This document shows positions 112 through 58,269 of a stretch of DNA of 64,000 bases, one piece after another. The position numbers were made by a program, and so were the translations under genes. Under the pieces are notes generated by a model. The model searched no databases. It was not told the origin of the DNA and worked only from the letters and a program-made list of their open reading frames with translations. Positions within the stretch are counted from its first letter, which is position 1. Each line of letters begins with the position of its first letter. Source of the DNA: Bacteroidales bacterium. GTDB taxonomy: Bacteria > Bacteroidota > Bacteroidia > Bacteroidales > UBA932. The stretch is taken from NCBI GenBank assembly GCA_024402135.1, contig JAKSJN010000006.1, forward strand, positions 1 to 64,000, given 5' to 3'.

Positions 112-197
112 AGGGGCTCTGCCCCTATAATACCCCGCGGCCTTTGGCCTTCCGTCTGCTGTGCAGACACGGCGTCGGCCGGCGCACTGATGTGCGC
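112..197 (+). repeat. Structured intergenic repeat, copy A
   Basis: This is a chain of small hairpins. Hairpin 1 is AGGGGC/GCCCCT (112-126), GGCC/GGCC is at 139-149, hairpin 2 is GTCTGC/GCAGAC (154-168), and hairpin 3 is GCGCAC/GTGCGC around a TGAT loop (182-197). Bases 119-197 are identical to 272-350 (copy B). The order of parts matches the more distant copies near 23934-24043 and 46891-47003: a G-rich/C-rich hairpin, then GTAA or ATAATA, a C run, CGGCC, a variable hairpin, and a TGAT-loop hairpin. Confidence 0.85.
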
Positions 198-264: not shown

Positions 265-350
265 AGAGGCGCTGCCCCTATAATACCCCGCGGCCTTTGG
301 CCTTCCGTCTGCTGTGCAGACACGGCGTCGGCCGGCGCACTGATGTGCGC
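265..350 (+). repeat. Structured intergenic repeat, copy B
   Basis: Second tandem copy, identical to copy A over 79 bases (272-350). Hairpin 1 here is imperfect, AGAGGC/GCCCCT with one A-C mismatch. The TGAT-loop hairpin (335-350) ends one base before the stop codon of the converging flavoprotein gene. The spacer between the copies (198-264) holds at 230-247 a perfect inverted copy of the tRNA-Lys end plus its downstream bases (41-58). Confidence 0.85.
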
Positions 351-23849: not shown

Positions 23850-23882
23850 GGCAACAAAAAAGGCTGAATTGAATTCAGCCTT
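23850..23882 (-). terminator. Terminator of the SDR dehydrogenase gene
   Basis: A perfect palindrome, AAGGCTGA/TCAGCCTT with ATT/AAT inside, is followed on the minus strand by TTTTTTG. It lies downstream of repeat copy C, so that repeat sits in the 3' untranslated part of the SDR mRNA. Confidence 0.85.
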
Positions 23883-23933: not shown

Positions 23934-24043
23934 TCTCGCGAAGCGAATTCGCATCAGCGAATCGGCCGTGCCGTGACTTTTGCGATAGCAAAAGTTGGAA
24001 AGGTGGAAAGGCCGTGGGGGTTACAGGGGGAGTATCTCCCCCT
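23934..24043 (-). repeat. Structured intergenic repeat, copy C
   Basis: Read on the minus strand it starts on the last base of the SDR gene's TAA stop codon. Hairpin 1 is AGGGGGAG/CTCCCCCT (24025-24043), then CTGTAAC, a C run and ACGGCC. Hairpin 2 is ACTTTTGC/GCAAAAGT (23976-23995). The TGAT-loop hairpin is ATTCGC/GCGAAT (23947-23962). The tail is CGCTTCGCGAG. A 30-base stretch after hairpin 1 is identical to copy D, while the stems of hairpins 2 and 3 differ but stay paired. Confidence 0.85.
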
Positions 24044-24816
24044 TACATACAGGTATATCCGCCATCAACTGGGAGGATGACGCCGTTTACGTAAGATGAT
24101 GCAGGTGAAGAGAGGAAGATTGCAGCGGTGTCAAGCTCGCCTTCCTTACCGTAACGTGACATAGGGATCACGGTCTTTGCATACTGTACGAAGAAATCAG
24201 AGTTGAGGGTCTCCTCGGTGAGTGGGGTATAGAAGTAACCTGGGCAGATTGCGTTGACAGTGATGCCTTTCTCTGACCACTCTGATGCAAGGGCACGGGT
24301 AAGGTTTACAACGCCACCCTTTGCAGCATGGTATGCTGATGATGGAGCGATCTTGTTACCTACCATACCGTACATTGATGCGATATTGATGATACGGCCA
24401 TAGCCGGCAGGAATCATGGCCTTCTTTGCGATTGAGCGAGCCATCTTGAAAGTTCCAAAGAGGTCGATGTTCATCTCGTTTGCGAATACAGCGTCTGGCA
24501 TGTCCTCTGCTGGAGTCACACCACCGGTGCCGGCGTTGTTGATGAGGATGTCGATGCGGCCGAACTTTGCGAGAATTGTGTCTACAGCAGCTTCTACGCG
24601 ATCGGTATCGGTGATGTCGCAAGGAACGCCGATGGCTTCAACGCCGAACTCGGCGGTGATGCTTGCAGCTACTTCCTCGATGAGGTTCTGTCTGCGTGCG
24701 AGTGCAACGATCTTTGCTCCCTGTGAAGCGAGAGCCTTTGCCATCTGTACACCAAGACCGGTTGAACATCCGGTTACTACGGCTACCTGGCCACTAAGGT
24801 CAAAATAATTCTTCAT
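24043..24816 (-). CDS. SDR-family dehydrogenase (gluconate 5-dehydrogenase-like)
   Basis: A 257-residue short-chain dehydrogenase/reductase. The coenzyme motif is TGCSTGLG (residues 15-22), followed by NNAG and the catalytic Ser and YHAAK (Tyr-x3-Lys). The C-terminus ends with the common VNGVILPVDGGYTCM. The best family guess is gluconate 5-dehydrogenase or 2-deoxy-gluconate 3-dehydrogenase (sugar-acid metabolism), based on general resemblance, so the substrate is uncertain. It is monocistronic, with repeat copy C and a terminator right behind it. Confidence 0.85.
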   Translation of the reverse strand: MKNYFDLSGQVAVVTGCSTGLGVQMAKALASQGAKIVALARRQNLIEEVAASITAEFGVEAIGVPCDITDTDRVEAAVDTILAKFGRIDILINNAGTGGVTPAEDMPDAVFANEMNIDLFGTFKMARSIAKKAMIPAGYGRIINIASMYGMVGNKIAPSSAYHAAKGGVVNLTRALASEWSEKGITVNAICPGYFYTPLTEETLNSDFFVQYAKTVIPMSRYGKEGELDTAAIFLSSPASSYVNGVILPVDGGYTCM

Positions 24817-45517: not shown

Positions 45518-46891
45518 ATGAAACTTAGATCAGTATTTGCATCTGCTGCTGTTCTCGTGGCCGCATCGTCACTGAACGCACAGAACCCTATCATCCGAGA
45601 CAATTTCTCGGCTGACCCTTCTGCCCATGTATTCAACGGAAGAGTCTATGTCTACCCATCACATGACATCCCTGCACCTGCAGACTATGCCCGCAAGGAC
45701 TGGTTCTGCATGGCTGACTACCATGTGTATTCATCAGACAACCTCGTGGACTGGGTTGACCATGGTGTCATCGTTGACCAGAAGCATGTTCCATGGGTAA
45801 ATGATACCAGCTACAGCATGTGGGCTCCTGACTGTAACTATTACAATGGAAAGTACTATTTCATATTCCCTGCTGGCCAGAAGCCTCAGCCTGGCCAGAG
45901 ATTCGCAGGCAACGGTATCGGCTACGCAATCTCGGACACTCCATACGGACCTTTCGTTCCAGAAGAGAAGCCTATCCAGGGTATCGGCGGTATCGACCCA
46001 TGTCTCTTCATCGACGACGATGGCCAGGCATATCTTGCATGGCAGGGACGTGGCCTTCAGGTACAGAAGCTCAGCGATGATCTCATGTCAGTTGTAGGCG
46101 AGCCTTACAATATTTCCAACATTCTCCCTCATCGCGGTCAGGAAGAGGGCCCATTCCTTTTCAAGGCAAACGGCAAGTACTATTATACATTCCCATGGGT
46201 TGACGACAAGCGTGAGTGCATCGCATATGCTATGTCTGACAAGCCGCTCGGACCATACAAGTTCGTAGGCAAGATCATGGAGCAGGACGGCGAGGAGTAT
46301 TCTTGCTGGACCAACCATCATTCAGTTATCAACTTCCAGGGCAAGTGGTATTTCTTCTATCATCACAACGATTACTCTCCAAAGTTCGACAAGAACCGTT
46401 CAGTATGTATCGACGAGCTCCACTTCAACCCAGACGGAACAATCCAGCTCATCACTCCTACCAAGCGCGGTGTAGGTGTCACCAAGGCTACCGATCTCAT
46501 CCAGATCGACCGTTACTCAGCACTCATGGAGTGCCGCAACGTAGAGATCGCTTACCTCAATGCTGACCGTCCATTCGACGGCTGGAAGGTAATCTTCTCC
46601 AACTCACATCAGGACAAGGGCGCATTCTGGGCAGAGTATGACAGAGTTGACTTCGGCAAGGAGAAGCTCAGCGGCATCCAGGCCAGAATCTTCTCTCTCG
46701 CAGGTGGTACCCTCGAGGTTAGAGTTGACTCACCGGAAGGAGAACTCCTCGGAACTATCAACGTTGGTGGTGCAGAAGGCTGGCAGGATGTCAAGGCTGT
46801 TCTTGATACATGCCCTACCGGCATGCACAACCTCTATGTGGCTATGACAAACGGCAGCCGCATCGACGTTGACTGGGTAACATTCAAATAA
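45518..46891 (+). CDS. Secreted GH43 with C-terminal CBM6-like domain
   Basis: A 457-residue family 43 enzyme of the xylanase-associated type (arabinoxylan arabinofuranohydrolase or beta-xylosidase). ATG 45518 is used because it gives a signal peptide (ending LNAQ); the upstream in-frame start would run through the promoter. The acidic triad is D33 (SADPSA), D160 (GGIDPCLF) and E210 (QEEGPF). The C-terminal about 120 residues form a CBM6-like sandwich ending VDWVTFK. Repeat copy D starts on the last base of its stop codon, and a terminator follows. Confidence 0.92.
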   Translation: MKLRSVFASAAVLVAASSLNAQNPIIRDNFSADPSAHVFNGRVYVYPSHDIPAPADYARKDWFCMADYHVYSSDNLVDWVDHGVIVDQKHVPWVNDTSYSMWAPDCNYYNGKYYFIFPAGQKPQPGQRFAGNGIGYAISDTPYGPFVPEEKPIQGIGGIDPCLFIDDDGQAYLAWQGRGLQVQKLSDDLMSVVGEPYNISNILPHRGQEEGPFLFKANGKYYYTFPWVDDKRECIAYAMSDKPLGPYKFVGKIMEQDGEEYSCWTNHHSVINFQGKWYFFYHHNDYSPKFDKNRSVCIDELHFNPDGTIQLITPTKRGVGVTKATDLIQIDRYSALMECRNVEIAYLNADRPFDGWKVIFSNSHQDKGAFWAEYDRVDFGKEKLSGIQARIFSLAGGTLEVRVDSPEGELLGTINVGGAEGWQDVKAVLDTCPTGMHNLYVAMTNGSRIDVDWVTFK

Positions 46892-47003
46892 GGGGGAGAA
46901 ACTCCCCCTGTAACCCCCACGGCCTTTCCACCTTTCCGTATTTGCTCGTAAACTTACAAATACAAGGCACGGCCGATCCGCTGATGCGGATTCGCTTCGC
47001 GAG
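46891..47003 (+). repeat. Structured intergenic repeat, copy D
   Basis: Hairpin 1 is AGGGGGAG/CTCCCCCT with an AAA loop (46891-46909), overlapping the last stop-codon base. A 30-base stretch identical to copy C follows (CTGTAAC, C run, ACGGCC, two CTTTCC-like units). Hairpin 2 is GTATTTG/CAAATAC (46938-46963). GGCACGGCCGA leads to the TGAT-loop hairpin ATCCGC/GCGGAT (46976-46991), and the tail is CGCTTCGCGAG. Confidence 0.87.
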
Positions 47004-47041
47004 AAATGGATGGTCAAATCTTGCCGCGGTCAGTGGAAATG

Positions 47042-47078
47042 AAAAACAGGGCTCTCGGATTCGAGGGCCCTGTTTTTT
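47042..47078 (+). terminator. Terminator downstream of repeat copy D
   Basis: CAGGGCTCTCG pairs with CGAGGGCCCTG (one mismatch), followed by TTTTTT. Repeat D therefore lies between the GH43 stop codon and the terminator. Confidence 0.85.
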
Positions 47079-57834: not shown

Positions 57835-58230
57835 GGGGATGTTTTGGTTTTGACAGCATCGATGTCGGTCAGTAAGCACGTCGGGAGCCAGTGCCCCTCC
57901 CGTTAATCCCGGACGCAAAAAATTAGTTGGCAACAACTCTTATGCACTCGCTGCGTAATTGACCAAGTCGATTACCTTAATCCGGTCCGCCAAGGCTGCG
58001 GGCCCGACGAGTATCCCTCCGAACTTTAGGCCGGTTATGGTCGGATCCAGGGGTATCATCTAAACCGGATGCTCGGGCCAGACGCCTCTAAGACCCGCTA
58101 AGACTTTCGAGGATAAGCTTTGGGTAGCCTGTCTTTCGGCAGCCCATCGTCGAAAACCAAAGGAAGAATAAGCGTGTAGAAAGCTGATTGGTGCGTTGTT
58201 TGGACGGCGGTTCGAGTCCGCCCATCTCCA
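57835..58230 (+). ncRNA. ssrA: tmRNA (SsrA)
   Basis: Transfer-messenger RNA of 396 bases that frees stalled ribosomes. The 5' end GGGGATG pairs with CATCTCC at the 3' end (58223-58229), the T arm is GGCGGTTCGAGTCCGCC, and the discriminator A is at 58230. The tag reading frame at 57929-57958 encodes GNNSYALAA followed by TAA, close to known Bacteroidota tags such as GETNYALAA. A pseudoknot-rich middle follows the tag. CCA is not encoded. Confidence 0.96.
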
Positions 58231-58231
58231 C

Positions 58232-58269
58232 AAAAATCGGTCTCTCAGATATCTGGGAGGCCGATTTTG
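58232..58269. terminator. Terminator of tmRNA, probably shared with marR
   Basis: AAAATCGG pairs with CCGATTTT and the stem continues with TCTC/GGGA-like pairs. T runs occur on both strands, and the converging MarR gene ends at 58318. Confidence 0.75.

Follow-up and report, generated by a model that had tools for sequence, protein, structure and literature searches.

MITEs such as ERIC and RU are non-autonomous intergenic repeats of about 100-130 bp. The REP and BIME sequences associated with RAYT transposases are, according to PMC3733652 and PMC6006769, short and dispersed palindromic DNA repeats that lie mostly in intergenic regions or near 3' ends, with some copies inside ORFs. GTAG REPs frequently carry G·T pairs in their stems, and CGTC-tagged REPs, reported also from Bacteroidetes, are described as palindromes with stems of 8-9 bp, loops of 4-5 bases and a CGTC end, without a known dedicated transposase (PMC3733652). 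Quentin et al. reported atypical structures beside Bacteroidetes RAYT genes of subclass 2.6, with further copies in the genome (PMC6006769). Finally, Rickettsia palindromic elements (RPE) are presented in PMC10969869 as sequences of about 100-150 bp that are found in frame inside unrelated protein genes.

Here we analyse a multi-hairpin repeat of ~110 bp, four copies of which (A to D) lie in the window, i.e. the whole stretch of 64,000 nucleotides under study. We propose, with a probability of about 0.72, that it is a non-autonomous mobile DNA element of Cryptobacteroides, built of hairpins and inserting as DNA at a short AT-rich target.

Copies in the window

The copies and their parts are positioned as follows.

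23934..24043, minus strand: copy C, whole element, found by blastn and by covariance model
24025..24043, minus strand: hairpin P1 of copy C (A GGGGGAG / CTCCCCC T), beginning on the final base of the TAA that ends the SDR gene
24043-24816: SDR gene ahead of copy C
24021..24025, minus strand: linker of copy C, TGTAA, between P1 and the CCCCC run
24010..24014 (5' arm, CGGCC) and 23963-23967 (3' arm), minus strand: outer stem P2 of copy C
23976..23995, minus strand: hairpin P4 of copy C, ACTTTTGC/GCAAAAGT
23947..23962, minus strand: hairpin P5 of copy C, ATTCGC-TGAT-GCGAAT
23934..23947, minus strand: 3' tail of copy C, TTCGCTTCGCGAGA
about 23855..23882, minus strand: terminator-like hairpin beyond copy C, owned by the host and outside the element (by eye)
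46891..47004, plus strand: copy D, whole element, behind the stop of gene 45518-46891
46891..46909, plus strand: hairpin P1 of copy D
46938..46963, plus strand: hairpin P4 of copy D, GTATTTG/CAAATAC
46976..46991, plus strand: hairpin P5 of copy D, ATCCGC-TGAT-GCGGAT
about 47047-47078: T-run hairpin beyond copy D (by eye)
112..197, plus strand: copy A, divergent subfamily (model match 106-208, E 1.2e-14)
265..350, plus strand: copy B, divergent subfamily, oriented like A and about 150 bases behind it (model match 259-361, E 6.8e-14)

The C/D repeat reported in a preliminary description of this DNA is confirmed as real. Copy C runs from 24043 to 23934 on the minus strand exactly as described there; copy D does start at 46891 on the plus strand, and its end at 47004 lies one base beyond the 47003 given. 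The first hairpin of both copies opens, as had been observed, on the last A of a TAA stop (A-GGGGGAG...CTCCCCC-T), and both copies indeed end ahead of a terminator-like hairpin with a T-run, as judged by eye. The hairpin beyond copy C is also found in a close relative, G225, in which this site is empty. An identical block is common to C and D, the longest being 37 nt rather than 30 nt. All the stems listed earlier are present, namely ATTCGC/GCGAAT, ATCCGC/GCGGAT and GCGCAC/GTGCGC for P5, and the ACTTTTGC/GCAAAAGT, GTATTTG/CAAATAC and GTCTGC/GCAGAC pairs for what was called hairpin 2. A 17-nt core motif has two matches in the window, compared with a mean of 0.16 in 100 shuffles, one of which reached two. 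Copy A sits behind a tRNA (1-46) that is cut by the window edge and scores below the Rfam cut-off. The window also contains a tmRNA gene at 57835-58233 (Rfam RF00023).

Family size and distribution

The host genome comprises 2.6 Mb in 34 contigs, with the window on contig C31. Using copy C as query, blastn found 24 places in this genome at E<=10, including 17 at E<1e-12. A covariance model (R1), built from 21 copies, found 25 places at E<=0.01, including 22 at E<1e-12; its training set includes own copies and other matches, which match by construction, and the independent count is that of blastn. The 22 strong model matches consist of 17 of the C/D type, among them a three-unit and a two-unit tandem, and five of the A/B type. 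Relatives were found by blastn in 12 of 150 other genomes of the genus and by the model in 66 of them, or 67 of 151 with the own genome; the copy numbers per genome obtained across the genus are lower bounds, as 25 candidates were scored per genome. The repeat family claimed from four copies is thus real and larger, the search of the genome and its relatives that had been suggested having returned many more.

We infer that the host genus is Cryptobacteroides. Among other named records, the model finds matches in Candidatus Cryptobacteroides choladohippi, Candidatus Cryptobacteroides onthequi and many Bacteroidales gut MAGs. A MAG labelled Prevotella sp. carries the element too (L222). In 394 other genomes of the phylum, for each of which nine candidates were scored, no match reached E<=1e-4. 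A pattern scan of contigs returned at least 109 stretches, and the model search took in 75 of the 80 loci listed, leaving aside L227-L255 (29 loci). Six of these 75 loci, from Burkholderia (two), Streptomyces, Sphingomonas, Chloroflexi and Verrucomicrobiales gave no model match, and the core pattern had no match in viral contigs. Rfam holds no family for the element, either in the window at gathering scores or in seven loci at E<=1, in agreement with the earlier statement that no named family fits, and no paper naming the repeat was found in the open-licence literature.

Structure and covariation

Each element consists, in order, of P1 (a hairpin with a G-run), a linker, a C-run, the outer stem P2 (CGGCC/GGCCG) enclosing P3 and P4, and P5. 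Conserved CCTTTCC and CACGG blocks are located in the P2/P3/P4 region. The P5 loop is CTGATG-like, and many copies then end in a tail of the TTCGCTTCGC type. In L042, L063 and L132, partial tandem copies of the first arm (AAGGGGGAGACA followed by a short AT-rich spacer) are found just upstream of the full element and differ in their spacer.

The preliminary description had pointed to pairing that is kept through compensatory change, which the larger sample bears out. Over 75 distinct sequences, 98.6% of 1407 cells are paired, and 11 of 19 pairs have changed on both sides; the alignments used for pair counts here and below (A3, A4) are fitted to the model structure. Across the genus, double changes affect every one of the six pairs of P5 and four of the six of P4, and P2 and P3 hardly vary. 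The covariation score is 0.348; shuffles give 0.068 and slid controls do not exceed 0.047, and none of the 500 shuffles or six slid versions reaches the observed score. For the weakest of five covariation measures, which counts further pair types, 22 of 500 shuffles reached the observed value. When folded as DNA, both strands of C and D have z values of -5.1 to -6.3, and none of 200 shuffles folds equally well.

For the contexts of the element, duplicates were removed to leave 145 unique copies, of which 23 are from the own genome, 11 from G225 and 111 from other genomes. Fifteen of the 145 were dropped from the flank analysis owing to pattern mismatch, and 110 distinct combinations were left. 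In these 110 copies, P1 is preceded by A, C or T, and in 104 of them this base can pair with the first base of the linker, compared with 49 expected from re-pairing. P1 thus closes on the base before the G-run. No complementarity between flank and linker was seen beyond this closing base in the 110 copies. Linker-end letters are slightly more flank-like than permutations, which ignore relatedness (z 2.6 to 3.4), and relatedness may explain this likeness. The 5' flanks are specific to subfamilies and include ATAA, TTAATACA, TTCATAC, TCTAACGA, TATGAA and TTCCTA, as well as TTATGCCA and CCTA. In some subfamilies the linker repeats flank letters (ATACA).

Of 142 copies, 138 have an open frame on the antisense strand and 133 on the sense strand, versus 86% of shuffles, the share expected at the length and composition of the element. 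With such a small excess, coding potential as a selected trait was not built on.

DNA versus RNA

RNA stems usually change via G·U. The stems of the element switch between Watson-Crick pairs, and G·U intermediates are nearly absent. The 134 unique rows hold 2506 cells, of which 2454 are Watson-Crick pairs, 13 are G·T and 7 are A·C. For comparison, 106 of 1522 pairs are G·T in 70 distinct tRNAs, taken with ARAGORN from the fetched loci and the window (Fisher p 4e-32). As ARAGORN draws standard pairs only, the comparison rests on the G·T share, and the zero A·C count of the tRNAs carries no meaning. The near absence of G·T pairs therefore favours a DNA palindrome over RNA, and what had been called a selected RNA or DNA structure stands as regards compensatory pairing and is narrowed towards DNA. 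Either the structure is read as DNA or its arms are kept matched by hairpin-templated repair, both of which act at the DNA level; the scarcity of G·T could also come from hairpin-templated mutation instead of selection.

These counts bear on a different reading, namely a cis-acting RNA element of the 3'-UTR (mRNA stabiliser, attenuator or termination aid) that would be kept for its benefit to the preceding gene. Copy C also folds strongly as RNA (z -5.3), and unpaired blocks such as CCTTTCC and CACGG are conserved, as would suit an RNA. The G·T count speaks the other way, as do the seven loci, in which no Rfam family matches the element at E<=1, and the distribution data presented below. We regard an RNA element as clearly unlikely.

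Presence and absence in a close relative

Copy C and ten further sites of the own genome were set against G225. The SDR gene of G225 is 97% identical to that ahead of copy C. After the stop, G225 reads TGTAATCTAAGAAATATATG, whereas the own genome reads TGTAA, 142 bases and then GAAATATATG; the 3' junction is not clean, with 33 extra bases. Of the SDR matches in 88 other genus genomes, 19 loci besides the own one were searched, and synteny was checked in G225. No model match was found in G225 or in the 18 further SDR-like loci, so that parsimony makes copy C a gain.

Sites C, D, L046 and L042 are empty in G225, and conversely the site of the G225 copy L136 is empty in the own genome. Remnants are found in G225 at L048, L049, L050 and L051, and L052 is altered there, with no recognisable element. 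The A-type sites L058, L061 and L062 have no model match in G225 and no clean junction. L043, L047, L053, L057 and L063 are common to both genomes, as is an array on contig C23 that has three units in the own genome and two in G225. Own L064 is a relic of a copy whose element is intact in G225. Copies therefore decay, and the remnants in G225 indicate that they are often lost, so that part of the absences may be due to loss. The presence/absence differences show that the element moved recently between these two close species. The lack of the element in G225 at several of the same genes, and in the 18 SDR-like loci, also argues against a 3'-UTR element maintained for the preceding gene.

A segment of ~4 kb between two inverted copies is flipped between the genomes (own C9:37947-42169, G225 C3:27920-32253), which is what homologous recombination between copies would give. 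Such an inversion, together with the placement behind stops, the structured palindrome and the tandem arrays, could also suggest attC-like attachment sites recombined by a tyrosine recombinase. The inversion, however, needs only homologous recombination, the attC core pair RYYYAAC/GTTRRRY is found in none of the 145 copies, and the copies are dispersed over many contigs instead of forming a single cassette array. We consider attC-like sites very improbable.

At L132 (G225 C1:186316-187809), a stretch of ~370 bp that includes the element is duplicated around an insert of 1.38 kb that is absent from the own site and holds a gene that by eye resembles acetyltransferases, with a short ORF upstream of it. 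This insert was rejected as a unit of the element, being a segmental duplication around the acetyltransferase-like gene.

Target site and stop codons

The empty sites give the sequence into which the mobile element was inserted. With a slash at the break, they read CAAATAAG/AAAC (D), ACAATAAG/AAACG (L136), CTATAAG/ATAC (L046), AAATAA/AGAGAC (L042) and TGTAA/TCTAAG (C). The element begins with G, which leaves one base of uncertainty in the position of the break, and the target duplication at these five sites amounts to at most one ambiguous base. TAA, mostly as TAAG, is already present at the sites without insertion, which suggests that the stop codon is a sequence target.

Among 16 independent C/D-type sites of the own genome, 13 lie within 5 nt of a stop, including eight that abut it exactly (for two of these, the distance is taken to a duplicated first P1). 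In two further sites the gene reads 22 nt into the element and stops at the linker TAA, and one site follows a tRNA-Gln. By comparison, the window has 234 TAA that are intergenic or stops, of which 26 are within 5 nt of a co-oriented stop (binomial p 1.6e-10 for 13 of 16). These gene-context counts come from a purpose-made gene caller, which made a wrong assignment in at least L050, a site with 4 nt between the end of the ORF and the element.

Two own sites have a TAA that is not in the reading frame of the gene. At one of these, L046, the gene of G225 lacks the element and has its end two codons past this TAA, and the own gene ends six codons past it, inside the element. The stop thus appears to matter as a sequence target and not as a functional partner. 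The strand-consistent place between stop and terminator in the own genome is what a 3'-UTR element would also occupy; sequence targeting with removal of harmful insertions can nevertheless explain the link to stops, so that a benefit to the host gene, though possible, need not be invoked. With respect to replication, 10 copies are on the lagging and 4 on the leading strand (p 0.18; hand tally that includes weak skews and leaves out the C9 pair).

Copies in other species

The 111 copies from outside the own genome (G000) and G225 are best-scoring and pattern-matched copies and not a random sample. A co-oriented stop is found within -15 to +25 nt of 11 of them and a co-oriented tRNA end at 9; an antisense gene start was found at none, and an antisense tRNA at 5. 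The link to stops and strand that had been described is therefore strong in the own genome (13 of 16 sites within 5 nt) and not general (11 of 111 in other species). The preliminary description had named beforehand what would speak against it, i.e. no copies beyond the four with no excess of compensatory changes, or copies without a link to gene ends and strand, and the outcome is mixed: there are many copies with strong covariation, yet many copies of the relatives are unlinked to gene ends.

Of the 111 copies, 16 are located within predicted genes, 14 in antisense orientation, and add in-frame stretches of 33-41 residues. Five are as follows.

L153, 1362-4928: copy inside a predicted gene
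L100, 1700-2653: copy inside a predicted gene
L110, 975-2339: copy inside a predicted gene
L166, 3368-4738: copy inside a predicted gene
L084, 324-1598: copy inside a predicted gene

The in-gene copies L073, L076, L098, L091, L210, L196, L067, L070, L075, L108 and L187 are less certain. Ten of the 16 genes were scanned with NCBIfam. The matches to ileS, mtaB, miaA, dapF, pbp1C and trmB exceed the curated cut-off, and those to hutI, hemW, an MFS family and a glycosyltransferase fall below it. Matches flank the insert on both sides in five of the ten (ileS, miaA, mtaB, the MFS transporter and the hemW-like gene). The IleRS match stops at residue 764 and resumes at 802, and the MiaA match stops at 58 and resumes at 105, its N-terminal piece being weak on its own. 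The mtaB and MFS genes have one spanning match each, and the hemW-like gene has a match on either side. The DapF match ends at the insert, except for a non-significant last piece. In trmB the insert is behind the matched part and may thus be a C-terminal extension, and hutI and the glycosyltransferase match mainly on one side of the insert. We conclude from these protein matches that the element is probably inserted in frame in at least the predicted ileS, miaA and mtaB genes. The 16 in-gene copies, with their 14 antisense cases, are a further argument against a 3'-UTR RNA.

Search for a mobilising enzyme

The presence of a RAYT-type transposase had been proposed as a check. None was found in the own genome at E<=0.001. 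With RAYT profile A5, both G000 and G225 gave no hit at this threshold, and none was detected in the element-rich genome G106. A search of the own genome with PF01797 identified one Y1 transposase, an IS200-like TnpA, whose ends look unlike the element by eye and whose 3.4-kb locus has no model match.

The element could be of the REP type and moved by a RAYT (TnpA-REP) transposase of the genus that has since been lost from the own lineage. RAYT-like proteins occur in 50 of 56 genus genomes, chosen by hand as 37 with and 19 without the element, and their best NCBIfam match is REP_Tyr_transpos, below the cut-off in the four tested. The atypical structures that PMC6006769 places beside subclass 2.6 genes are also in line with such a mobiliser. 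RAYT presence, however, does not track the element (34 of 37 genomes with it versus 16 of 19 without; Fisher p 0.40). A looser PF01797 set gave a borderline association (p 0.05), with 39 genomes having both, 35 the transposase only, 28 the element only and 49 neither. Five element/RAYT-like pairs within 5 kb, picked by eye, are found among the matches listed, with gaps of 1.5-4.6 kb, versus 3.1 expected (p 0.21).

No model match at E<0.1 was found in 60 Y1/RAYT-like loci (29 and 31), taken with ~1.5 kb on each side where the contig allowed; four of these loci are IS200-like and some were fetched twice. A single weak match (E 0.16 and 0.21) is the same gene fetched twice. The element thus does not flank RAYT genes as in a REPtron within ~1.5 kb in the loci searched. 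At least four of 14 RAYT-like genes with folded flanks have their own, different hairpins on both sides, and the REP foot G[TG][AG]G is directly before P1 in none of the 145 copies. The tests of presence, association and adjacency do not support a RAYT as the mobiliser, and a REP-type origin with a lost transposase seems rather unlikely to us, if less so than an RNA function.

The RAYT-like proteins of Cryptobacteroides (L288-L343) form a large and diverse set of about 300 residues each, and the hairpins that flank at least four of their genes on both sides have roughly 30 nt. An autonomous partner located between copies was also considered and rejected, as the inward pairs L154, L173, L095 and L096 and the same-strand pair L222 enclose no transposase-like gene, judging ORF translations by eye.

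Proposed mechanism and significance

For the mobile DNA element, we suggest the following route. Hairpins P1, P2/P3/P4 and P5 would form in DNA and, judging from their anatomy, would be read as single-stranded DNA by an IS200/REP-like strand-transfer enzyme acting in trans. The insertion target in the own lineage would be (A/T)TAA, usually followed by G, so that most tolerated insertions would be found right behind TAA stops, between stop and terminator. Any effect on the 3' ends of host mRNAs would be a by-product. The base before P1 belongs to the host at the empty sites of the own lineage. A bolder and quite doubtful extension is a RAYT-independent single-stranded DNA mobility system in Bacteroidales, in which a guide encoded by the element itself (the linker versus the host 5' base) would pick the target.

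The element appears to be an undescribed family of mobile palindromes in a large, uncultured gut genus. By changing gene ends and adding 33-41 residues inside predicted housekeeping genes, it shapes genes directly. Two genomes that differ by recent presence and absence, neither with a detected RAYT, make the mobilising enzyme a concrete question. In addition, the scarcity of G·T pairs is suggested as a simple test to tell DNA palindromes from RNA elements.

Comparison with known systems

The element resembles several described classes and lacks marks of each, be it the GTAG foot, a RAYT, inverted ends or the attC core. Like REP and BIME sequences, it is a multi-copy and mostly extragenic palindrome with compensatory stem changes; REPs are 20-40 bp long, whereas the element has ~110 nt and several hairpins, with no RAYT detected in its host. 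GTAG REPs are rich in G·T stem pairs, in contrast to the nearly complete lack of such pairs in the element. It shares with CGTC REPs the palindromic nature and the absence of a known dedicated transposase, but has several stems, and no CGTC tag was seen in an unscripted reading. The subclass 2.6 structures, compared by description only, are likewise atypical Bacteroidetes palindromes in multiple copies; they are adjacent to RAYT genes, whereas the element is not within ~1.5 kb of the fetched RAYT-like genes. In-frame insertion in protein genes is common to RPE, also compared by description only, and to the element (16 of 111 copies inside predicted genes); RPE belong to another phylum, and most copies of the element are outside predicted genes. 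MITEs are similar in size, non-autonomous and intergenic, but the element has no clear target duplication at empty sites and lacks terminal inverted repeats, as 8 of 10 end bases match in none of the 145 copies. Failing the defining features of REPs, MITEs and attC sites yet working like REPs, RPE and MITEs, the element is filed broadly as short mobile palindromic DNA, outside any named family.
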